A stretch of 50,410 nucleotides of DNA from contig CACBPP010000007.1 of NCBI GenBank assembly GCA_902541175.1, positions 1 through 50,410 on the forward strand. Reading direction: 5' to 3'. This stretch comes from an uncultured SAR86 cluster bacterium. GTDB lineage: Bacteria > Pseudomonadota > Gammaproteobacteria > Magnimaribacterales > D2472. Positions 10,024 to 29,658 of this stretch are shown here, piece after piece; positions within the stretch are counted from its first letter, which is position 1, and every line of letters starts with the position of its first letter. The notes beneath the pieces are model-generated. The model did not search any database. It was not told the DNA's origin and saw nothing but the letters and a program-made list of their open reading frames with translations. Made by a program: the position numbers and the translations under genes.

Positions 10024-11279
10024 GAAATTTCGTTTCTTGGTTTAAATTCCAATACGGTAGCATTGATACAGTATCTTGGCATGCCATTTGGACCATCATC
10101 AAATACATGTCCCAAATGTATATCCGTGGAAACTGATCTTATTTCAGTCCTTTTCATACCGTAACTATTATCAGGAAGTTCATATACAGATCCATCAACA
10201 GGTTTCGTGAAAGATAACCAACCAGACCTTGAGACAAATCTATTTCTTGTATCAAAAAGAGGTTCTCCACTGAGTTTATCTATAAAGATACCATCTGGTG
10301 TATTTTTAAAAATTTGATATTCTTTGCAGAAGCGTGCATCAGTTCCTTTATTAAATGCGACGTTATATGCCTCTGAATTTCCTAATTTAAATTTACCCAA
10401 TAATTGATAAAAATCTTTTTGATTTATGTATCCCTGATACGAAAAAATCTCTTTTCCATTTTCTAGAAAAATTAAAGATGGAGTAGCCCAGGTAGGAGAT
10501 TTAATTTCAAGGCCATGTAACTGATCAGAAGTTCTATAGCTCAAGGGGATACTTCCTTTATAGCTATTAGTCACATCATCCTTAAATTTTTCACAGTAAG
10601 GACAATAATTTTGAGAGTCTAGAACTAATATTTGCTTTCCTGTAAGAAGATATTCATTATCTTCGAAAATTTTTTCTTCATCGTTAAAAACAATTCCTGT
10701 TGATAGGTCTGGGCAATAGCCATTAGGATTCTTTTTTAAATAATCCTGATGATATTCTTCTGCAAGATAAAAGTTATCTAAAGGCTCCAGCTTGGTTCTA
10801 ATTTTTCCATAACCTCCCTCAATTAGGAGAGCTTGGTATTCAGCTATAATCCTTTCTGCGAGTTCTTTCTGAGATTCATTTTGAAAAAGAATTGTTGATC
10901 TATATTGAGTACCTATATCATTGCCCTGCCTATTATGTTGAGTAGGATCATGAGTCTCAAAAAAGTGTTTTAATATATTTTCAAGGGATATGGCATTACT
11001 ATTAAAAGTTACTTTCACTACTTCTGCAAAATTCTTCTCGTTATACTTATTTTTAAACTGAATTATAGATCTGTAATTTGGTTTTATGCCATATCCATTT
11101 GCATAGCCAGATTCTGCATTGATAACTCCATCCATTAATTCATAGCCCTTTTCAGCCCCCCAAAAGCAACCTGATCCAAGATAAATTGTTTCAACATGCG
11201 AGGTTTTACTTGCACCTAGATATGGAGTTATTAACAAAACTAGTATTAAGTAATTTAAGATTTTAACTTTCTGGTTCAT
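10020..11279 (-). CDS. Exported MsrA - thioredoxin-like - MsrB fusion
   Basis: A 419-residue three-domain methionine sulfoxide repair protein. Residues 1-24 form a signal peptide. MsrA (about 30-190) carries the catalytic Cys38 in GSGCFWGAE. A thioredoxin-like domain (about 200-298) has NYCPYCEKF with Cys226/Cys229 and the cis-Pro segment WATPSLIFLENG. MsrB (about 305-415) has SGWLSF, HLGHVFDDGP and catalytic Cys404 in RYCINA. The thioredoxin module presumably reduces both reductase domains in the periplasm. Neisseria PilB has the order Trx-MsrA-MsrB, so the middle position here is unusual. The frame is open further upstream, but ATG 11279 gives the signal peptide; it overlaps the end of the GST gene by 17 nt. 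Confidence 0.9.
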   Translation of the reverse strand: MNQKVKILNYLILVLLITPYLGASKTSHVETIYLGSGCFWGAEKGYELMDGVINAESGYANGYGIKPNYRSIIQFKNKYNEKNFAEVVKVTFNSNAISLENILKHFFETHDPTQHNRQGNDIGTQYRSTILFQNESQKELAERIIAEYQALLIEGGYGKIRTKLEPLDNFYLAEEYHQDYLKKNPNGYCPDLSTGIVFNDEEKIFEDNEYLLTGKQILVLDSQNYCPYCEKFKDDVTNSYKGSIPLSYRTSDQLHGLEIKSPTWATPSLIFLENGKEIFSYQGYINQKDFYQLLGKFKLGNSEAYNVAFNKGTDARFCKEYQIFKNTPDGIFIDKLSGEPLFDTRNRFVSRSGWLSFTKPVDGSVYELPDNSYGMKRTEIRSVSTDIHLGHVFDDGPNGMPRYCINATVLEFKPRNEIS

Positions 11280-11883
11280 ATTTATAACTCTTACTTTTAA
11301 TAAAAGCAGGTCTTGAAAATAGATTATCAGACCACCTCTTAATATTTGGTTTAAATGCTTGCTCAATACCGAGTGCTTCAGCAAGATTTATTGCATAACT
11401 AACACAAATATCTGCTAACGTGAAACGATTTGAGCACAAGTACTCTTTATTATCTAAGGATTTTTCAAGGAGTTTCAACCTAGAAACAAACCATCTGCTA
11501 TATCCTTCAACAGCAGCGTCAGCAACTCCTGGTTCCTGAAATTTATATCTCAAAACTACTGTTTGCGGAAAAGTTAACGTAGCATCAGAGTGGAATAGCC
11601 AATTTAAATACAACGGGTAATCTTCTTCATTTGGTAATACTTGAAGATCAGTTGGGCCATACTTTTCTACAAAATATTGCGAAATTGCAACGGATTCTGT
11701 CATTTTGACGTCGCCATCAATCATATATGGAACTGTTCCAAGTATATTAATATCTAAATATTCTTTCATAAATACTCTTGGAGGAAATGGCATCATGATT
11801 AATTTATAATCTAGCCCCATTTCTTCTGCAGTCCATATTGGTCGCATGGCTCTAGAATTTTCTGTACCGTATATATTTATCAT
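11263..11883 (-). CDS. Glutathione S-transferase family protein
   Basis: A 206-residue soluble GST. The thioredoxin-fold N-terminal half includes NILGTVPYMIDGD and MTESVAISQYFVEKYG, the cis-Pro and glutathione gamma-glutamyl binding segments. The helical C-terminal half includes SNRFTLADICVSYAI with the N-capping Asp typical of GSTs. The substrate is unknown. It is the promoter-proximal gene of a two-gene unit with the Msr fusion, so a role in oxidative or electrophile stress is plausible but inferred. It is divergent from the Atu-like operon, sharing a 91-bp intergenic region. Confidence 0.85.
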   Translation of the reverse strand: MINIYGTENSRAMRPIWTAEEMGLDYKLIMMPFPPRVFMKEYLDINILGTVPYMIDGDVKMTESVAISQYFVEKYGPTDLQVLPNEEDYPLYLNWLFHSDATLTFPQTVVLRYKFQEPGVADAAVEGYSRWFVSRLKLLEKSLDNKEYLCSNRFTLADICVSYAINLAEALGIEQAFKPNIKRWSDNLFSRPAFIKSKSYKYEPES

Positions 11884-11921
11884 ATTTTGAAATTTTAAAT
11901 GGTTATTTTACATCTATTTAG

Positions 11922-11949
11922 TGGTAATATTAATGATATTATATTACCA
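11922..11949. promoter_or_regulatory. Perfect 9-bp inverted repeat, candidate TetR operator
   Basis: TGGTAATAT (11922-11930) and ATATTACCA (11941-11949) form a perfect inverted repeat with a 10-bp centre. It lies 25 nt before the carboxylase beta start and 39 nt before the divergent gst start. A TTTACA at 11907-11912 could be a -35. The operon encodes its own TetR regulator, and AtuR of Pseudomonas, a TetR repressor of the analogous operon, is known to bind inverted repeats in its own control region. The operator assignment is an inference. Confidence 0.55.
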
Positions 11950-11974
11950 TTATTGTTCAATTTGGGTTTACATT

Positions 11975-13633
11975 ATGAAAAAAGAAAATATTTCTCCAGT
12001 AATTAAGACAAATCTAGACACCAAGTCAGAACAGTATCTTAAAAATAAAGAAATGATGCTTGAAAAACTAAAATTTTTAGATGGTCTCCTTGATTTAGCA
12101 GAAATAGGCGGAGGTATGCATCATCATGAACGTTTAGCAAAACGTGGTAAAATGCCAGTTAGACAAAGAGTCATGAATGTTCTTGACCAAGACAGCCCTT
12201 TTCTAGAAATTCAACCTTTTGCTGCTTATGGAACCAATAATTATAACGTTGGTGGTGGATGTGTTTCAGGTGTAGGCATAATATCTGGAATAGAGTGTGT
12301 AATTTTTGCCAATGATCCAACTGTTAAAGCAGGAGCAATGACTGTTTATGTTGGTGAAAAATGGAAAAGAGCAAAAGAAATTGCTAGAGAAAATAGAATA
12401 CCATTTATAAGTTTTGTTGAATCTGCTGGAGGGGATTTAAATGTTTCAAATAACAGCGGTGATACTCCTCCAATTGCGCCAACCCTTCAACAAGGTCACT
12501 TTGCATCAACAGGAAGATTCTTCTATGAAATGACTGAATTATCAAAATTAAGAATTCCTGTGATTTCAGTTGTATTTGGTTCATCAACAGCCGGAGGTGC
12601 ATATCAACCAGGAATGTCTGACTACAATATTTTTATCAAAGACCAATCAAAGGCATTTCTTGCAGGTCCACCTTTGGTAAAAATGGCAACTGGAGAAGAA
12701 TCAGATGATGAAACGCTTGGTGGAGCGCAAATGCATTCTGAAGTTTCTGGGCTGTCTGATTATCTTGCTGAAGATGAAATGGATGCTCTTAGAATATGCA
12801 GAGAAGTTGTATCTCATTTGAACTGGTCAAAAAAAGGCCCAGAACCACAAATTCTATCTGAAGAACCAAAACATGATAAAGAAGAGTTATTGGGAATTCT
12901 TAGCGAAGATCTAAAATCTGCAGTTGATATAAAGGAAATTATTGCTAGATTTACTGATGGTTCAAAATTTGAAGAATTCAAACCTTTATATGGGTCATCT
13001 TTGGTATGTGGTTGGGCTTCAGTTCATGGGTATCAAGTTGGAATTATTGGTAACAATGGTCCTATCTATCCTCAATCTGCTGAAAAAGGAGCAAGTTTTA
13101 TTCAATTGTGTAATAAAAGAGATATCCCACTAATATTTCTTCACAATGTAACTGGATTTCTTGTTGGCAAAGACTTTGAAAGGCAAGGTATTATCAAAAA
13201 AGGTTCTCAACTTATAAATGCTGTTTCAAATTCAATGGTGCCGCACATAACGTTTATTGTTGGAGCATCATATGGAGCTGGTACATATGCAATGTCTGGA
13301 AAAGCATTTAATAACAGATTCACATTCCTATGGCCAACAGCCAAAATTGCAGTTATGGGGCCTGAACAAATGGCAGGTGTGATGTCTATTGTTAGAAAGG
13401 CAAAAGCAAAAAGAGATGGCAAAAAATTTGATGAGAAAGCTGATGAACAACTTAAAGCAATGGTAATTGACTACCTTGAAAAATTGTCTCATGGTCTTGT
13501 TGCAAGCAGCATGCTGACTGATGATGGAATTATTGATCCAAGAGATACCAGAGATGTTATTGGATTTTGTCTATCAATTGTAAGTAATAACGTTATTGAA
13601 GGAGCAAAAGAATATGGAGTATTTAGATTATGA
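11975..13633 (+). CDS. Acyl-CoA carboxylase beta subunit (carboxyltransferase), AtuC/MccB-like
   Basis: A 552-residue carboxyltransferase of the biotin-dependent acyl-CoA carboxylase family. It transfers carboxyl from carboxybiotin to an enoyl- or acyl-CoA. Motifs include GGGMHHHERLAKRGK near the N-terminus, IFANDPTVKAGA, SAGGDL, GSSTAGGAYQPGMSD, and GASYGAGTYAMSGKAF in the C-terminal half. The clustering with AtuA and a TetR regulator favours a geranyl-CoA-like role, but 3-methylcrotonyl-CoA or another branched substrate is possible, and the sequence is divergent from both as I remember them. ATG 11975 is chosen over an earlier TTG that would overlap the inverted repeat. The stop overlaps the alpha subunit start (ATGA). 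Confidence 0.85.
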   Translation: MKKENISPVIKTNLDTKSEQYLKNKEMMLEKLKFLDGLLDLAEIGGGMHHHERLAKRGKMPVRQRVMNVLDQDSPFLEIQPFAAYGTNNYNVGGGCVSGVGIISGIECVIFANDPTVKAGAMTVYVGEKWKRAKEIARENRIPFISFVESAGGDLNVSNNSGDTPPIAPTLQQGHFASTGRFFYEMTELSKLRIPVISVVFGSSTAGGAYQPGMSDYNIFIKDQSKAFLAGPPLVKMATGEESDDETLGGAQMHSEVSGLSDYLAEDEMDALRICREVVSHLNWSKKGPEPQILSEEPKHDKEELLGILSEDLKSAVDIKEIIARFTDGSKFEEFKPLYGSSLVCGWASVHGYQVGIIGNNGPIYPQSAEKGASFIQLCNKRDIPLIFLHNVTGFLVGKDFERQGIIKKGSQLINAVSNSMVPHITFIVGASYGAGTYAMSGKAFNNRFTFLWPTAKIAVMGPEQMAGVMSIVRKAKAKRDGKKFDEKADEQLKAMVIDYLEKLSHGLVASSMLTDDGIIDPRDTRDVIGFCLSIVSNNVIEGAKEYGVFRL

Positions 13634-15552
13634 TCTTTAATTCTATATTGATCGCTAACAGAGGCGAAATTGCTTGCAGAATTATTAAAACTGCAAAAGA
13701 AATGGGGATAAAATCTATTGCTGTTTATGTTGATGCGGACAAGGACTCGCTATTTGTAAAACAAGCTGATGAATCAATTAGATTGGAAGATGGAGGATAT
13801 CTTGATGAAGATCAAATTATTAATGCTGCTAAAATGTCTGGCGCTCAAGCAATCCATCCTGGGTATGGATTCCTGTCAGAGAACGCTTCTTTTGCAAGAA
13901 AAGTAAAAAAAGAAAAGTTAATCTGGGTTGGTCCATCCCCTAATGTTATCTCTGTAATGGGAGATAAATTAAAAGCAAAAGAATTAGCTATTAAAGCTGA
14001 TGTTCCTACTCTACCAATGACATCTAAACCAAATGAGGCAAAAAAAATTGGGTACCCTCTTCTAATTAAAGCAGCCGCAGGTGGCGGTGGAAAAGGAATG
14101 AGAATTGTAAATAAAGAAAAGGATCTAAAGGAATCTATTGTTAGTGCTCAAAGGGAAGCTAAAAGCGGGTTTAATGATGAAAGAATCTTTATTGAAAGAT
14201 ATGTAGAAAAATCTAGACATATTGAAATTCAAATTCTGGGCGATAGTAAAGGCAATGTTGTTCATTTAGGTGAAAGAGAGTGCTCAATTCAAAGAAGACA
14301 CCAAAAAATAATTGAGGAGTCTCCATCTCCAAGGATTTCAGATGATGTAAGAAATAAAATGGGTGAAGCAGCAGTTAAGCTTGCGAAACAAATTAAATAT
14401 GAATCTGCTGGCACAGTAGAGTTTCTTTTTGATGATAAAACTGAAGAATTTTGGTTTTTAGAGGTTAATACAAGGCTTCAAGTTGAACATCCGGTTACTG
14501 AAGAAGTTACAGGTATAGATTTAGTATGTGAACAACTAAAGATTGCAAGAGGAGAATCACTTGAATTTGATCAAAAAGATATAACTTGGACTGGCTCATC
14601 AATCGAAGCAAGGCTATATGCTGAAGATCCAAATAATGATTTTCTTCCAGAAATTGGGACATTAATTGCTTTCGAGGAAAATAATTCTGCGGAGGCCAGA
14701 TGGGATACAGGTGTAAACAAAGGAACGGTAGTCGGAACAGATTTTGATCCCATGCTTGCAAAAATAATTTCGTATGCTCCGAATAGAACTGATGCTGCCG
14801 GTAAATTAGCTAAAGCTCTTGAATCAGCTCACATTGGTGGTGTAAAAACAAATAGAGATTTTTTAGTAAATTGTTTAAAAACTAAAGAATTTTTAGATGG
14901 GGATACCACCTCAGATTTTATTGAAAGAGTAAAACCCAGCAGAAAGCTCGAAATTAATCAATCAGAAATTGAGCATGCTTCTGCTATTGCCGCAATGTGG
15001 ATGCAACAACAAAATAGAAATAATTCCAATGTTGCAAAATTTATGCCTTCCGGTTGGACAAACGGAAGATTGCCAAATCAAAAAGTAACATTTGAATTTG
15101 AAAATACTGAATATGATTTTGAATATAAACAAAAACGAGATCAAAAGTTTCTTTTTTCAAATAATAAGGAAGCATTCATTTATTCGAGTGATGAGGATGG
15201 AATAGACATGATCTTTGATGGTAAAAGACACTATTCCAGAGTGACGGTATCAACAAACAATATTTTAGTACATATGCCATTCGGTGATGTGATGCTTGAA
15301 TTGAAGCCTAGATTTAAAATGCCAGGTACTGAAGTTACTATTGGTGGACTAATTGCTCCAATGCCAGGAAAAGTTATTGATGTAAAAGTTAAAAAAGGTA
15401 AAAAGGTAAAAGCTGGTGATACCTTAGTTATTCTTGAAGCAATGAAAATGGAACATTCAATTAAAGCTTCTGAAGATGGAACTGTTTCAGAACTATTAAT
15501 ATCGGTAAATGATCAAGTTGAAAATGGTGCCTTATTGATGGTGGTTAAATAA
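13630..15552 (+). CDS. Acyl-CoA carboxylase alpha subunit (biotin carboxylase plus BCCP), AtuF/MccA-like
   Basis: A 640-residue biotin carboxylase fused to a biotin carrier domain. Near the N-terminus is LIANRGEIACRII. The ATP-grasp domain shows AAAGGGGKGMRIV, VHLGERECSIQRRHQK and FLEVNTRLQVEHPVTE. A middle BT-type linker region of about 100 residues follows, then the C-terminal lipoyl-like domain with EAMKMEH, biotinylated at Lys606. The domain order and length match MCC and GCC alpha subunits. It is translationally coupled to the beta subunit by a 4-nt overlap and precedes the TetR gene by 7 nt. It would carboxylate biotin with ATP and bicarbonate for the beta subunit. Confidence 0.93.
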   Translation: MIFNSILIANRGEIACRIIKTAKEMGIKSIAVYVDADKDSLFVKQADESIRLEDGGYLDEDQIINAAKMSGAQAIHPGYGFLSENASFARKVKKEKLIWVGPSPNVISVMGDKLKAKELAIKADVPTLPMTSKPNEAKKIGYPLLIKAAAGGGGKGMRIVNKEKDLKESIVSAQREAKSGFNDERIFIERYVEKSRHIEIQILGDSKGNVVHLGERECSIQRRHQKIIEESPSPRISDDVRNKMGEAAVKLAKQIKYESAGTVEFLFDDKTEEFWFLEVNTRLQVEHPVTEEVTGIDLVCEQLKIARGESLEFDQKDITWTGSSIEARLYAEDPNNDFLPEIGTLIAFEENNSAEARWDTGVNKGTVVGTDFDPMLAKIISYAPNRTDAAGKLAKALESAHIGGVKTNRDFLVNCLKTKEFLDGDTTSDFIERVKPSRKLEINQSEIEHASAIAAMWMQQQNRNNSNVAKFMPSGWTNGRLPNQKVTFEFENTEYDFEYKQKRDQKFLFSNNKEAFIYSSDEDGIDMIFDGKRHYSRVTVSTNNILVHMPFGDVMLELKPRFKMPGTEVTIGGLIAPMPGKVIDVKVKKGKKVKAGDTLVILEAMKMEHSIKASEDGTVSELLISVNDQVENGALLMVVK

Positions 15553-15559
15553 TTTATTA

Positions 15560-16174
15560 ATGCAAAATTTAGATCACCAAAGTAATTTACAACAGAATAA
15601 AAATTCAAGAATCTATACAAAAAGGCACCATGAAATTATAGATGCTCTAGAGAGATTACTAGAGCAAGGCGTTCCAGAATTAACTATGTCTGAAATAGCT
15701 AAGAAACTAAAAATTTCATTGAGAACACTATATGAAATTGCTCCAAGCAGAGATAAATTAATTTTGATGACAATGGATAATATTCTCAAAAAATTAGGAA
15801 AATTTGCAATGGATTCTGTGGAAGATATTGATTCGCCAATCAACAAATTAGAAAAATATCTTTTTATAGTTAATCAAGCTGTTGGTCCAAAGTTTGATAG
15901 ATTCTTAATTGACATGGAAAAAATTAATGGGTCAAAAACAACAGCTGATTACCACGAAAACTTTATAAAAAATTATATTAAAAAGCTCCTAGAAGAGGCG
16001 ATTGAAAAAAAAGAAATTAAATCGATTGATGTTAAAGCCTTTTCAATACTTCTAGGAGGAATAGGTAGAGAATTTTTTAAAGAAAAAAACAAAAATTCAA
16101 TTAATTTAACACCTGAAGAATCTGCAAATTCAATCACAAGCATAATATTGAATGGAATTAAATTAGAGAACTAA
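15560..16174 (+). CDS. TetR/AcrR family transcriptional regulator
   Basis: A 204-residue regulator with an N-terminal helix-turn-helix (about residues 20-66: IIDALERLLEQG, LTMSEIAKKLKISLRTLYE) and a helical C-terminal ligand domain. It lies inside the Atu-like operon between the carboxylase and atuA-like genes, overlapping the latter by 1 nt (TAATG). It probably senses an acyl-CoA or terpenoid-derived ligand and controls the operon, possibly through the inverted repeat at 11922-11949. In Pseudomonas the comparable regulator AtuR is also TetR-type but sits at the operon's edge. Family assignment is secure; target and ligand are inferred. Confidence 0.87.
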   Translation: MQNLDHQSNLQQNKNSRIYTKRHHEIIDALERLLEQGVPELTMSEIAKKLKISLRTLYEIAPSRDKLILMTMDNILKKLGKFAMDSVEDIDSPINKLEKYLFIVNQAVGPKFDRFLIDMEKINGSKTTADYHENFIKNYIKKLLEEAIEKKEIKSIDVKAFSILLGGIGREFFKEKNKNSINLTPEESANSITSIILNGIKLEN

Positions 16175-25334: not shown

Positions 25335-26486
25335 CTAATCTAGATGAGTGTCTTTATCTGCTTGATACCATGGCATCTTCACAACAACACAATTTAAGTC
25401 TCCATAAGGACTCTCAACAACTAGCTTGGAGCCTTCATCAGCAAACTCAATGTCTACAATTGCAAGTGCGATATTCTTTTTAAGTCGTGGTGAGAAAAAT
25501 GCTCTAGATACCCTTCCAACTTTTTTTTCAGAATTATTTACTGGCCAAAAATTTTCAGGAGCCTTTGTTAAAGGATCGCCATCAAGCTCAAGTCCAACTA
25601 ATTTTTCTTTAATTCCATTTTCTTTTATTTTTTTAAGAGCTTCTTTGCCAATAAAATCTATTTCTTGATCTAAATCAACCAATCTCCCAAATCCAATAGT
25701 GTAAGGATTATGCTCTCTTCCAAAATCACTTCCATATGAGAGTAATCCTCCTTCAATAGTTCTTATAGTATTTGGTGCGATAACTCTTCCATTAAATTCC
25801 TGTGCAGCATCATAGACTAATTCAAATAGCTTATTGCCAAGTTTTCTATCTTGAAGATATAACTCATAACTAAGCTCTCCACTCCAACCAGTTCTAGCAA
25901 TTACCATTGGTATATCATCTAATTTGGTTTGTTTTGCTTTGTAGTAGCCTAAGTCATCATGTTCGCCATTAAATAGCTTTTGAATTAATTTTCCTGACTT
26001 TGGTCCACTTATTTGCAACGGAGACACGTCGGGTTCATGAATTGAAACATCCATTCCAGAGTTAACTGCAATTCCTTGAAGCCATAAGATAACATCTCCA
26101 TCACCTGGTGAAATCCAAAATTTATTATCCTCAAGTCTTAATAAACAAGCATCATTAATTATTCCGCCATCCATGTCTGTAAGAATAATGTATTTGCAAA
26201 AACCAATTTCACACTTCTCTAAGTTCCTGGGTGTTATATACCTAACAAAGTTATAAGCATCCTTTCCATTAATTTCGATTTGACGTTCTGCAGCAAAATC
26301 ACCAAATGTCACGTCATTTATTAAGCTTTCATATTCTTTTTCTGGACCTGAAAATGCAGTGGGCAGATACATTTTGTTATAAACCGTAAAGCCTGTAACA
26401 CCATACTTGAGATTAGAATCATAATAAGGAGATTTTCTTATTCTGGTTCCTATTCCAATCATTAATGGTAATTGTGATTTTGACAT
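25335..26486 (-). CDS. dmdA: Dimethylsulfoniopropionate demethylase-type GcvT-family protein
   Basis: A 383-residue THF-dependent aminomethyltransferase-fold protein. It closely recalls marine DmdA in RIRKSPYYDSNLKYGV, PEKEYESLINDV, ILTDMDGGIINDACLLRL, SGMDVSIHEPDVSPLQ, ARTGWSGELSYE, and SPRLKKNIALAIVDIEF. DmdA transfers a methyl from DMSP to THF, giving methylmercaptopropionate and 5-methyl-THF, an abundant marine carbon and sulfur route. A related but non-DMSP GcvT paralogue cannot be excluded without a tree and active-site comparison. ATG 26486 has a good AGGGAG site at 26495-26500 (8-nt spacer). It is divergent from the methyltransferase-kinase-nucleotidyltransferase cassette. Confidence 0.72.
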   Translation of the reverse strand: MSKSQLPLMIGIGTRIRKSPYYDSNLKYGVTGFTVYNKMYLPTAFSGPEKEYESLINDVTFGDFAAERQIEINGKDAYNFVRYITPRNLEKCEIGFCKYIILTDMDGGIINDACLLRLEDNKFWISPGDGDVILWLQGIAVNSGMDVSIHEPDVSPLQISGPKSGKLIQKLFNGEHDDLGYYKAKQTKLDDIPMVIARTGWSGELSYELYLQDRKLGNKLFELVYDAAQEFNGRVIAPNTIRTIEGGLLSYGSDFGREHNPYTIGFGRLVDLDQEIDFIGKEALKKIKENGIKEKLVGLELDGDPLTKAPENFWPVNNSEKKVGRVSRAFFSPRLKKNIALAIVDIEFADEGSKLVVESPYGDLNCVVVKMPWYQADKDTHLD

Positions 26487-26548: not shown

Positions 26549-26576
26549 TTTACATATTTAGATTATTATTTATATT
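26549..26576 (+). promoter_or_regulatory. Putative promoter of the methyltransferase cassette
   Basis: TTTACA (26549-26554) and TATATT (26571-26576) are separated by 16 nt. Each matches the sigma-70 consensus at five of six positions. The predicted transcription start is near 26583 and the gene has GGGG at 26587-26590 just before its ATG. The call is by eye. Confidence 0.5.
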
Positions 26577-26594: not shown

Positions 26595-27698
26595 ATGGGC
26601 AAAAAAAGATTTTTTGATGATAGATTGAAATATCTATCATTTATCCAAAATACTGGGGAAAAAAAAGCAATATCTGAAAAGATTTATCCCTTCATTTCAA
26701 AACTATCTCAAAATAAATCCTATTTAAGAATACTTGACGCCGGAACTGGAGATGGAACAATTAATGCTAACATCATTAAGAGTTTTCATAGATATCATCC
26801 ATACACTTCTCTTCTCATTACAGGTAAAGAAATAAGTTATGAAGATCTAAAAAATACTCTAGAAAAAATGCCAGATAGGTTTGTTGAGCATCCAAATCTT
26901 TTGGTAACAATGACAAATGTTAAATTTTCAGAACTTGGTCTAATTGAAAGTGCATCTAAAATTAGTAACAAAAAAGTAAGAGAATTTAATTTAATTCTTA
27001 AAAGCGACAATTCTTATGACTTTAATTCACAAATTACAGGCAATAAACTTGGAAATTTTATTAAAAAATACTGGGGCATTGAGATTGATGATAAAGGAAG
27101 AACTTCATATTCAAATCCCTGTATTGTAAGAATATATAGAGAAGATAATTCTCGGCATCTTAAGCAGTTTCTTAACAACGATTATAAGAACAATAATTAT
27201 GATTTAATTATTGCTTCTCAAGCCTATAGAGCAGCTTCAACAGTCAAGATAAAAGTAAATAATGTAATTGGGCCTTTAATGAGGTTATTAAATAAATCTG
27301 GCAAGCTTTTAGTAACTCACTCTTATGGTGGGAAAAGTATTCAAAAAGTTTTAAAAACAGCCTTTAAAGAAAAAGAGGCATTTCCTAACAATGCGAGAGA
27401 TATAATTGATTATTTAAAAAATAATCCAACTGGAGAAAATAATTTGTATAATTTTTCAAATCCAGTTTCATACAACTTTAGTTTTAAAAAAGCACCTGAT
27501 CAAACTGTAACTGAGTTGTTTGGACACAATACTGATGCAAAGTGGGCAAATATTCTGTATGTAGGACAAATCCCAGAAAAAGATATTCAATTCATTGAAA
27601 AAAATCCAAGACTTTATAATAAGGTTAAAAGGACTATTGAAAACATAGGAAATATAGAATTTAATAACGAACTATTTACTATTACAAAAATTAGATAA
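26595..27698 (+). CDS. SAM-dependent methyltransferase-like protein, unknown substrate
   Basis: A 367-residue protein with a class I methyltransferase motif I, ILDAGTGDGTIN (about residues 45-56), and a later YDLIIASQAYRA strand. The middle holds a long insertion (about 115-200), and the C-terminal part (SYGGKSIQKVL, VTELFGHNTDAKW) matches nothing I recognise. It probably methylates a small molecule, but this is a fold-level inference. The start ATG follows GGGG by 4 nt. Its stop overlaps the next start (TAATG), and the third gene overlaps the second by 8 nt, so the three proteins are likely made together. Alternatives include a related transferase without methyl activity. Confidence 0.62.
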   Translation: MGKKRFFDDRLKYLSFIQNTGEKKAISEKIYPFISKLSQNKSYLRILDAGTGDGTINANIIKSFHRYHPYTSLLITGKEISYEDLKNTLEKMPDRFVEHPNLLVTMTNVKFSELGLIESASKISNKKVREFNLILKSDNSYDFNSQITGNKLGNFIKKYWGIEIDDKGRTSYSNPCIVRIYREDNSRHLKQFLNNDYKNNNYDLIIASQAYRAASTVKIKVNNVIGPLMRLLNKSGKLLVTHSYGGKSIQKVLKTAFKEKEAFPNNARDIIDYLKNNPTGENNLYNFSNPVSYNFSFKKAPDQTVTELFGHNTDAKWANILYVGQIPEKDIQFIEKNPRLYNKVKRTIENIGNIEFNNELFTITKIR

Positions 27699-28108
27699 TG
27701 AAGATTTTAATAATGGGGCTTCCAGGAAGTGGCAAAACTTACTTAGCAAAAAGAATGCAACCAATATTGAAAGCTGCATGGTATAACGCAGACATTGTAA
27801 GAGAAATGGCAAATGACTGGGATTTTTCACCAGAAGGTAGAATTAGACAAAGTTTAAGAATGAAGAACTTGGCTGATTTTGAAAAATCTCAGGGGAGAAT
27901 TGTAATTTGTGATTTTGTTTGTCCTACCAGTGAAACAAAAAAAAATTTTAATCCAGACATTACAATATGGATGAATACAATCAAATCTGGCAGATACGAA
28001 GATACAAATAAAATGTTTGAGGAGCCGAGTGAGATAGATTATGAAGTTAAGCAAATGAACGATACAAATCATGAAACTATTGCAGCTCAAATTTTAGAAA
28101 ATGTTTGA
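27698..28108 (+). CDS. Small P-loop kinase resembling adenylylsulfate kinase
   Basis: A 136-residue P-loop protein: Walker A GLPGSGKT at residues 7-14, WYNADIVRE in the place of the LDGDNVR substrate motif of APS kinase, then DWDFSPEGRIRQSLRM and ICDFVCPTSE in matching order. It is shorter than usual CysC (about 200 residues), because the C-terminal part is condensed to DTNKMFEEPSEIDYEV. It likely phosphorylates a hydroxyl of a nucleotide-activated or small substrate; whether that is APS is unclear. It is coupled to the methyltransferase upstream (1-nt overlap) and the nucleotidyltransferase downstream (8-nt overlap). Confidence 0.7.
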   Translation: MKILIMGLPGSGKTYLAKRMQPILKAAWYNADIVREMANDWDFSPEGRIRQSLRMKNLADFEKSQGRIVICDFVCPTSETKKNFNPDITIWMNTIKSGRYEDTNKMFEEPSEIDYEVKQMNDTNHETIAAQILENV

Positions 28109-28490
28109 TTGGAAAAAGCCAACTGTTCAAATGCTAGGAAGATGGCAACCATGGCACAAGGGTCATCAAGAACTATTTAAAAGATCAGTTAAAAAAACAG
28201 GTCAGGTAATTATTCAGGTAAGAGACGTTGAAGGGTCATCAGGTGGAAAAGGACAAGACGATAATCCATTTTCCTGGGAAGATGTTTGTAAAAATATTGA
28301 GGAAAATCTTGCAAAAGATGGTTTTGAGAGAGGCGAAGAATATGAAATAATGCTTGTACCAAATATAACCAACATAACTTATGGCAGAGGAGTTGGTTAT
28401 GTATTTGAAGAAGAATCATTCGATGAAGAAATATCTTCCATAAGTGCTACAAAAATTAGATCAGAATTAAGAGAAAAGGGAAAGCTTTAA
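28101..28490 (+). CDS. Small cytidylyltransferase-fold nucleotidyltransferase
   Basis: A 129-residue protein of the HIGH-type nucleotidyltransferase superfamily. The ATP-binding GRWQPWHKGH lies at about residues 13-22 and the C-terminal ISATKIRSELREKG is the equivalent of the ISxTxIR motif seen in NMN and phosphopantetheine adenylyltransferases and in ATP sulfurylase. It would transfer a nucleotidyl group to a small phosphate, sulfate or related substrate. Paired with an APS-kinase-like protein, an activation route is suggested, but the substrate is unknown. It is the last gene of the cassette and lies 1 nt from the convergent saccharopine-dehydrogenase-like gene. Confidence 0.68.
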   Translation: MFDWKKPTVQMLGRWQPWHKGHQELFKRSVKKTGQVIIQVRDVEGSSGGKGQDDNPFSWEDVCKNIEENLAKDGFERGEEYEIMLVPNITNITYGRGVGYVFEEESFDEEISSISATKIRSELREKGKL

Positions 28491-28491
28491 A

Positions 28492-29658
28492 CTATTCTAC
28501 TTTAAAAGAAAGTCCTGCATTTCTCTCTAATCTTTTTATCAATTTTTCACCCATTGATGCAGCTGGCGTATAAATACCACCAGGTAAATCTTTACAATCT
28601 TTAACAAGACAAACTGCGCTTTCTGCTATCATTTTAGAAGTTGATCCATAACCAGGATCCATGTCTCCGCTAACTGAGGCTTTTAATGTATGATCATCTA
28701 AATCTGCACAAAAAAGAACATCGTAGTTTCCATTTTCCCTTGATTCTTTTGAGGGTCCCTCACCTGGCTCTGGAGCATCTCCTAAGGGATTCATTGTTGA
28801 TATAAATTCTGCAGAAGCTTTACCCTCTTCTCCTGATCCCTGAATCCACATTTCATTATATTTAAAGTCTTCTCCATAAATATGGTTCATCAATTTGTTT
28901 GAACGATGAATGTTTTTGGTATTTATTGGAGCCATGAAAAAAGGAGCTACCCAAGTATCAAGCTCTTCATCATATTTTGGTTTAGAGTCGTCATCTTGTT
29001 GAACGCCTTGAAAACCTTCACATAAAGCATGAGGATTAATAAGAACATTAATAAGATCAGGGTTTGTATGCAAAGCAGCCATGGTTGCCTTCATGGATGC
29101 AGCCGTTCCGCCAGAAAACTCTCCATTCATGTCTCTTACCCTTCCCCTTACTGAGGGAGCATATTTATTGAACTTTGCCTTAACTTCCTCTTGAACAAAT
29201 AAAACTCCCAGATCGAAAGGAATGCTATCAAATCCGCAAGAAAAAACTATTCTTGCACCTTTTTGTTTTGCTTCATCAGAATATTCAGAAATAATTTTGT
29301 GCATAAAACCTGGTTCACCACATAAATCAACATAATCAGTTCCTGAAGATATGCATGATGTAATAATTTTTTCTCCATATAATTGGTATGGACCAACTGT
29401 AGTTAATACACATTTTGTTTGGCTAACCATTGCGTCAACAGATGCCTGATCAGAACTATCTACTATCATCATTGCAATATCTGAGGGAAGATTAAATCTA
29501 TCTTTTACTTTTTCGAGTTTTTCTTTATTTCTTCCGGCAATAGCCCATGAAATATCATCATTACAACCATATTTATTAATTACATACTCGACAACAAGCT
29601 TTCCAGTAAAGCCAGTTGCTCCAAAAATTACAAAGTCATATTGATTTGAGTTACTCAT
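28492..29658 (-). CDS. Saccharopine dehydrogenase-like NAD(P)-binding oxidoreductase
   Basis: A 388-residue protein with an N-terminal Rossmann motif FVIFGATGFTGKLVVEY and the AGRNKEKLEK segment, then LTTVGPYQLYGE and DYVDLCGEPGFM. This arrangement matches the saccharopine-dehydrogenase-like / trans-acting enoyl reductase group known in mycobacteria and widespread in lipid-rich bacteria. The reaction is probably reduction of an enoyl-lipid intermediate, but this is not proven for marine homologues. It is divergent from a FadD-like gene, which fits a lipid role. Confidence 0.75.
   Translation of the reverse strand: MSNSNQYDFVIFGATGFTGKLVVEYVINKYGCNDDISWAIAGRNKEKLEKVKDRFNLPSDIAMMIVDSSDQASVDAMVSQTKCVLTTVGPYQLYGEKIITSCISSGTDYVDLCGEPGFMHKIISEYSDEAKQKGARIVFSCGFDSIPFDLGVLFVQEEVKAKFNKYAPSVRGRVRDMNGEFSGGTAASMKATMAALHTNPDLINVLINPHALCEGFQGVQQDDDSKPKYDEELDTWVAPFFMAPINTKNIHRSNKLMNHIYGEDFKYNEMWIQGSGEEGKASAEFISTMNPLGDAPEPGEGPSKESRENGNYDVLFCADLDDHTLKASVSGDMDPGYGSTSKMIAESAVCLVKDCKDLPGGIYTPAASMGEKLIKRLERNAGLSFKVE

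Follow-up and report, generated by a model that had tools for sequence, protein, structure and literature searches.

What might two overlapping genes of an uncultured SAR86 cluster bacterium make together, when one encodes a short kinase resembling adenosine 5'-phosphosulfate (APS) kinase and the other a minimal nucleotidyltransferase? The genes lie in a window of 50,410 nucleotides (contig CACBPP010000007.1 of assembly GCA_902541175.1), designated contig C7 in a genome of 1.16 Mb and 13 contigs. An original prediction for this DNA had left the product open; the gene contexts described below were best fitted by 3'-phosphoadenosine 5'-phosphosulfate (PAPS). We propose that the pair is probably a minimal PAPS-synthesis module whose nucleotidyltransferase would be an unrecognised ATP sulfurylase. 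Gene linkage, folds, residue conservation, distribution and the absence of Sat and CysD matches were observed, and from these we infer both catalytic activities and their substrates.

The kinase-nucleotidyltransferase pair

Searches of 60 genomes (relatives and the window's own genome; all counts out of 60 refer to this set) found homologues of the kinase and of the transferase in the same 39 genomes, a 40th kinase row (G058, E 6e-4) being left out. In 38 of these genomes the two genes were same-strand neighbours, G042 having a gap of 193 nt between them; in G036 they were on separate contigs, and on both of these a sulfotransferase match lay close by. At 75 of 80 genome-contig loci, found by the pattern R[WF]QP[WL]HxGH, the short kinase accompanied the transferase (gap of at most 60 nt in 72 and at most 300 nt in 3). 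Neighbours were counted over all open reading frames (ORFs), and a canonical CysC (257.6 bits) lying 4.4 kb downstream in L214 was excluded, hence 75 and not 76. In a search of the phylum at E 1e-15, the transferase was present in 2 of 398 genomes, the own genome included.

In the viral collection, 573 stretches encoded kinase relatives, and the best 80 were kept; habitats are not given there, and 'marine' is presumed. Of these 80 contigs, which had been found via the kinase, 78 had the transferase after it, separated by up to 60 nt (63 contigs), up to 300 nt (13) or 926 nt (2); L025 and L081, the remaining two, broke off less than 100 bases from the kinase. The viral flanks held T4-like genes (UvsY, UvsW, ThyX, helicase) and sugar genes (epimerase, UDP-glucose dehydrogenase). 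A pathway to cytidine diphosphate-linked or other glycan precursors was considered for these sugar genes and rejected, since they gave no consistent partner.

Five phage records matched both halves of the pair, and the three that were opened (L022-L024) carried both in one protein. Kinase-transferase fusions also occurred in two proteobacteria, Microvirga and the genome G447, and in haloarchaea. Both window proteins matched PHROG 10255, on its two halves (kinase E 1.5e-29, transferase E 8.9e-22). A FastTree phylogeny built from 103 pairs, including three fusions, separated the cellular from the viral members; one alphaproteobacterial pair, L239, stood basal in the viral branch. We hold with high confidence that the functional unit is the kinase plus the nucleotidyltransferase.

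Two side observations concern these homologues. Phages L022 and L024 belong to the Casjensviridae, and their fusion lies beside a MazG-like pyrophosphatase gene and a gene annotated as cysteine dioxygenase, with a NADAR-domain gene in L022; this neighbourhood is possibly a sulfur-related cassette. SAR86-like transferases (80 and 78% identical) were found in L191 and L200, in bins labelled Bacteroidota and with no short kinase nearby, which reflects either transfer or misbinning.

The kinase scored 30.1 bits on the Pfam family APS_kinase PF01583 (gathering score 21.1) and 22.6 bits on the APS-kinase equivalog TIGR00455 (cut-off 138.7); on its sequence it was classed as APS-kinase-like and not as a CysC equivalog. 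The structural model of the kinase (predicted local distance difference test, pLDDT, 90.5) had an APS-kinase fold. Its best PDB match was 5cb6 (Z 17.1, root-mean-square deviation 2.0 A, 136 of 136 residues aligned), and the top 22 PDB entries in the VIA-align comparison were APS kinases or carriers of APS-kinase or APS-kinase-like domains (Z 17.1-15.8).

In CysC of Mycobacterium tuberculosis, APS is contacted by D480, R483, F492 and R497, according to the available part of PMC4373884. By motif position, via the aligned haloarchaeal kinases, our own reading would place D32, R35, F43 and R48 of the window kinase in correspondence with these; R35, F43 and R48 then stand for the APS-binding residues R483, F492 and R497 named in that part. 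None of the four varied among the 32 aligned sequences. The counterpart of F576, also from that part of the paper, has an ambiguous position within the shortened lid. The kinase very probably acts on APS.

The transferase carried the GRxQPxHxGH motif and the nucleotidyltransferase fold of the nicotinamide mononucleotide (NMN) adenylyltransferase (NMNAT) family. Its model (pLDDT 82.7) was closest to the folds of phosphopantetheine adenylyltransferase (PPAT) and NMNAT (best Z 11.0), Foldseek alone being weak (best E 1.2e-3). The PDB profile match was 1f9a (MJ0541, E 1.3e-10), which we take to be an NMNAT, its table entry reading 'hypothetical protein'. The scores on the NMNAT models fell below their cut-offs (PRK01153: E 4.7e-8, 32.8 bits, cut-off 127; TIGR01527 equivalog: 30.4 bits, cut-off 181.2). 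The HxGH motif of Sat was present as HKGH, with both histidines invariant in alignments A1 and A3; the motif is common to the whole superfamily. No Sat structure was among the best 50 entries listed for the transferase model, where a missing row excludes nothing, and the PP-loop domain of CysD (PF01507) was not among its Pfam matches at E of 1 or less. By the models tested, the transferase does not qualify as Sat, as CysD or as NMNAT. We favour the proposal that it makes APS.

The likeness to NMNAT had made a split NadR the first candidate, in which the kinase would phosphorylate nicotinamide riboside and the nucleotidyltransferase would be an NMN adenylyltransferase. The best sequence matches of the transferase were indeed archaeal NMNAT models and chains, and the part of PMC8066274 that was available describes viral nadM as an auxiliary gene and lists it separately from cysC. 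However, the NMNAT equivalog score was far below cut-off, and the kinase was of the APS-kinase type in both sequence and fold. NAD salvage was demoted because of the linkages to sulfation genes set out below (sulfotransferase, CysQ, NodP/NodQ and canonical CysC), and is now regarded as quite improbable.

Sulfation genes and competing explanations

Sulfotransferases of family PF13469 were found in 43 of the 60 genomes. Among the 39 pair-bearing genomes, G050 alone gave no such match and has a PF00685 sulfotransferase instead, which leaves 38; the other 5 belong to the 21 genomes that lack the pair. Among the 23 genomes that were at least 90% complete, 11 had both the pair and a PF13469 sulfotransferase, 12 had neither, and none was mixed. 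PF13469 was also present in 14 of 15 further genomes (in three only at E >1e-7) and in 9 of 10 plasmids. The own genome encodes three sulfotransferases, two of which are tetratricopeptide repeat (TPR) proteins. Beside two TPR-sulfotransferase genes of this genome, each preceding its own one, lie genes that we read as TonB-receptor-like (L264:2541-6439 and 10945-15627).

Sat was found in 1 of the 60 genomes (G036) and in 3 of the 15 further genomes (G064, G065, G071), so that 38 of the 39 pair-bearing genomes of the SAR86 set were without it. No PF01507 match of CysD strength was found in any of the 60 genomes, the own genome, where CysN was not searched, giving none; weak rows occurred in 22 of the 60, and the sole strong row was a CysH-like protein in G014. 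In 44 further records, PF01507 matched the Microvirga NodP (1e-56), a Natrinema plasmid (1.4e-32) and, weakly, G069, G070 and G071. Genome G447 (1.9 Mb, 100% complete) carried an intact fusion and a sulfotransferase, with neither Sat nor PF01507.

Sulfation genes also stood next to the pair. Five of the nine haloarchaeal plasmid matches were opened, and all five had a sulfotransferase upstream of the annotated cysC; these five cysC products passed TIGR00455 (147.8-160.3 bits) and continued into the transferase. A YqcI/YcgG-family gene was observed directly after the sulfotransferase and CysC-transferase genes in plasmids L111-L114, and upstream on the opposite strand in L110. A sulfotransferase gene lay at most 33 nt upstream of the kinase, or overlapped it, at 13 of the 80 genome loci, and the order sulfotransferase-kinase-transferase was found in 6 of 8 genomes of SAR86 family f2 (L136, L138, L140, L141, L142, L146), the two counts sharing some genomes. 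In G050 (family f4), one cluster held a PF00685 sulfotransferase, a CysQ-like protein (222.7 bits on TIGR01331, cut-off 228.8), DUF2061, the transferase and the kinase; the seven other f4 genomes searched had neither the pair nor a PF13469 sulfotransferase.

At five alphaproteobacterial loci (L237-L241), CysQ lay upstream and was above the TIGR01331 cut-off in all five; the kinase stood between CysQ and the transferase in three, and a kinase match was on another contig in two. A Microvirga plasmid carried a NodH-like sulfotransferase, the kinase-transferase fusion, NodP, and a NodQ with a C-terminal DUF2061 replacing CysC, the Nod names being our own reading of Pfam matches and gene order. The linked sulfotransferases, CysQ, DUF2061, NodP/NodQ and fusions to canonical APS kinases indicate sulfation.

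A DUF2061-like protein (PF09834, confirmed for L036) was encoded at 16 of the 80 viral loci, at 15 of them between kinase and transferase and at one, L104, ahead of the kinase. This small predicted membrane protein may be a partner in sulfate activation, in transport or membrane anchoring. Instances were noted at L106:8175-9764, L036:6423-6635, L201:7793-8008 and L139:8982-9209.

Several points weigh against PAPS synthesis by the pair. The co-occurrence of pair and sulfotransferase follows family lines and gives no independent statistic, and the sulfotransferases of the own genome are unlinked to the pair. PF13469 was found in none of 3 phages and in 2 of 16 viral contigs searched whole (one of them below cut-off), and no sulfotransferase was among the 25 of 53 families listed for 69 of 170 viral neighbour clusters. 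The transferase reached 13.6 bits on Sat PF01747 (gathering score 24.3) and lacks Sat's QxRN motif. In the ranking of the kinase model, a sugar kinase (Z 15.6) and gluconate kinase (Z 15.3) came next after the APS kinases. The kinase lid is shorter, and the first Asp of the DGD phosphotransfer motif is Asn (NAD) in 32 of 32 sequences, with the second Asp kept; mutating both aspartates in human PAPSS abolishes APS kinase activity, as given in the available part of PMC11697783.

The viral contigs without a PF13469 match (14 of 16), the NMNAT/PPAT-like transferase and the Asn in the kinase motif would suit a PAPS analogue. The nucleotidyltransferase would then adenylylate another oxyanion or a phosphate ester, and the kinase would phosphorylate the product at its 3' position for a use other than sulfation, which is conceivable in viruses. 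In the cells, however, the informative contexts were sulfation genes, and the same transferase family was fused to canonical APS kinases. We consider such an analogue improbable.

The conservation of the transferase bears on a further explanation, that the kinase is an APS kinase whose APS comes from an undetected or external source and that the nucleotidyltransferase is an accessory protein (regulatory, scaffold or channelling) and no ATP sulfurylase. Of 195 transferase rows, which were not made non-redundant and include 15 defining rows, 191 kept all 21 residues invariant in A3, both histidines of HxGH among them; three rows had one change, and the Microvirga copy beside NodP/NodQ, the only clearly degenerate one, had six. 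The transferases of G447 and the haloarchaea kept all 21. Such constancy speaks against an accessory role, as does G447, complete and with a sulfotransferase, yet without a Sat or PF01507 match.

An accessory role is favoured, on the other hand, by kinase-only relatives on plasmids of Methylosinus, Rhizobium, Cupriavidus and Rhodoferax; those of Rhodoferax and Rhizobium had kinase and sulfotransferase without the transferase. It is favoured too by the four Sat-bearing genomes (G036, G064, G065, G071), where the transferase is present along with Sat and shows no marked degeneration. Since these transferases are not among the rows with at least three changes, redundancy alone does not erode the transferase, which weakens the argument from redundancy; the degeneration in Microvirga is a single instance, and residue conservation at the genome loci was partly selected by the pattern used to find them. 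The accessory explanation is judged unlikely, and the preferred reading remains that the pair makes PAPS.

Gene layout and the methyltransferase

The features of the locus are given in Table 1. The three ORFs of the original prediction were found on the forward strand with overlaps of 1 nt and 8 nt, as were all of its motifs, including the P-loop GLPGSGKT. They are not chance ORFs, because homologues occur in relatives (kinase and transferase as above, methyltransferase in 29 of the 60 genomes). A promoter of their own had also been claimed. A promoter-like 10/12 match was seen at 26549-26576, upstream of the methyltransferase gene; it is no evidence of a promoter, because the scanned stretch held 11 promoter-like sites and shuffled sequences were expected to hold 12.1.

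Table 1. Genes at the kinase-nucleotidyltransferase locus, with positions in the window.
Feature	Positions	Strand	Remarks
Putative class I methyltransferase, 367 aa	26595-27698	+	Upstream of kinase; LDAGTGDG, weak Pfam matches
Short APS-kinase-like P-loop kinase, 136 aa	27698-28108	+	P-loop residues 7-14; NADIVR 30-35 (canonical DGDNVR); shortened lid
Minimal NMNAT/PPAT-like nucleotidyltransferase, 129 aa, proposed ATP sulfurylase	28101-28490	+	GRWQPWHKGH, NPF, YGRGVGY, ISATKIR
DmdA-like/GcvT-family gene, divergent, context only	25335-26486	-	PRK12486 342.3 bits (cut-off 410); PF01571 E 2.7e-33
Saccharopine-dehydrogenase-like gene	28492-29658	-	PF03435 E 1.6e-12; synteny

The divergent neighbour had been called DmdA-type and taken as a hint of sulfur metabolism. 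Dimethylsulfoniopropionate demethylase was its closest model, at a score below cut-off, so that the gene is fairly called DmdA-like and DmdA itself was not established. Sulfur does seem to be involved, the clue being the sulfotransferases, CysQ, DUF2061 and NodP/NodQ at homologous loci and not this neighbour. No glycan genes were seen among the ORFs of 22-33 kb, a region scanned with Pfam in part; the whole window was not annotated for them. An anti-phage defence role was dropped because PADLOC gave no match.

The methyltransferase shared 71-83% identity with nine aligned SAR86 homologues, with no curated family above cut-off. It scored 12.5 bits on PF13489 (gathering score 27, E 0.13); PF13847 was matched in 5 of 10 aligned homologues (best E 0.0011), and no notable PDB profile match was obtained (best E 0.19). 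All 29 genomes carrying it belong to family f1. No relatives were found in viral contigs, by a pattern-based scan, or in phages.

According to the original prediction, kinase, nucleotidyltransferase and methyltransferase jointly activate and modify one small molecule. The gene overlaps agree with this, as does the methyltransferase gene adjoining the pair in 26 of the 29 genomes that have it; the ends of contigs obscured the arrangement in G008, and the gene lay apart from the pair in G030 and G014. The trio is therefore not unique to this window; the wider conserved linkage, however, is that of the pair, since none of the 80 viral loci and only 17 of the 80 genome loci had the methyltransferase, the other 63 being without it. 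In G030 and G014, moreover, it kept its syntenic position, with the DmdA-like gene on one side, the saccharopine-dehydrogenase-like gene on the other and the pair missing; at these loci, L149 and L150, the saccharopine-dehydrogenase-like homologue followed it directly, with no gene between. Both genomes carried a divergent pair elsewhere (L131, L132), in a gene cluster of glycan type (names by our own reading), and in the tree this pair fell within the cellular clade but on a different branch. The pair thus appears to have been lost and replaced, and the methyltransferase to be no functional partner. It is probably a SAR86 neighbour and not part of the unit, and joint modification by all three proteins is very unlikely; the linked activating unit of kinase and transferase is what stands of that proposal. 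A CysH-like protein below the CysH cut-offs was observed at L132:5983-6576 (= L169:11274-11867), in a cluster of Wzz/UDP-glucose-dehydrogenase type that also carries the pair.

Proposed pathway and known systems

In the proposed pathway, the nucleotidyltransferase would adenylylate sulfate with ATP to give APS and pyrophosphate, acting as an NMNAT-like ATP sulfurylase and not one of the Sat or CysDN type. The APS-kinase-like partner, encoded by an overlapping gene and fused elsewhere, would at once convert APS to PAPS by phosphorylating its 3'-OH, and so pull the first, unfavourable step. The PAPS of the SAR86 host would serve sulfotransferases whose genes lie at other places in the genome, and that of other carriers would serve adjacent sulfotransferases, with CysQ clearing the by-product 3'-phosphoadenosine 5'-phosphate. 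As none of the models assigns the transferase to Sat, CysD or NMNAT, the module would be PAPS-synthase-like, with a new ATP sulfurylase variant as its first half.

PAPS synthases and bifunctional Sat-CysC proteins (human PAPSS, Aquifex 2gks) likewise join an HxGH adenylyltransferase to a domain of APS-kinase fold and carry out the two reactions proposed for the pair. They differ from the pair in that its transferase has 129 residues and is NMNAT/PPAT-like and not Sat, its kinase gene comes first, and its kinase has NADxxR and a short lid. With CysDN-CysC and NodP-NodQ the pair would have PAPS supply in common; NodP-NodQ supplies PAPS, for example for Nod factor sulfation, and Microvirga has both systems side by side. 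In contrast to CysDN-CysC, no CysD-family match was found in the window's genome, a search that did not extend to CysN. The archaeal NMNAT (NadM) and PPAT (CoaD) share the fold, GRxQPxHxGH and NPF with the window transferase, which is shorter and has its own GR[GDE]VGY motif and a sulfation neighbourhood. PHROG 10255, a family of 230 positions named only 'kinase' (category 'other'), corresponds to two separate genes in the window.

Viral cysC genes are known and have been assigned to assimilatory sulfate reduction, and the available parts of the papers mention no adenylyltransferase partner (PMC9529941, PMC10914622). The viral CysC proteins described in that part of PMC9529941 differ from prokaryotic CysC and have 109-135 residues modelled. 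Compared by such partial descriptions, the reported viral cysC genes may include this short kinase. A word-based search of partial journal coverage did not surface the pair as a PAPS module, which does not show its absence from print.

To our knowledge, sulfate activation is known via two enzyme types, Sat and CysDN. On balance we lean, by a small degree, towards a third type of ATP sulfurylase, an NMNAT-derived APS maker of about 129 residues that works with a stripped-down APS kinase. Streamlined ocean bacteria lacking Sat and CysD would thereby gain a capacity for sulfation, as would haloarchaea and a large number of environmental T4-like viruses, which are probably marine. The small sulfate-to-PAPS system could serve in vitro sulfation. 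If the proposal is true, some viral 'cysC' genes, and possibly 'nadM' genes, would belong to one PAPS pathway and not to sulfate reduction and NAD metabolism. It would also explain sulfation in SAR86 and other carriers although no Sat or CysD was found, and a third, much smaller type of sulfate activation would be an added step in sulfur biochemistry.

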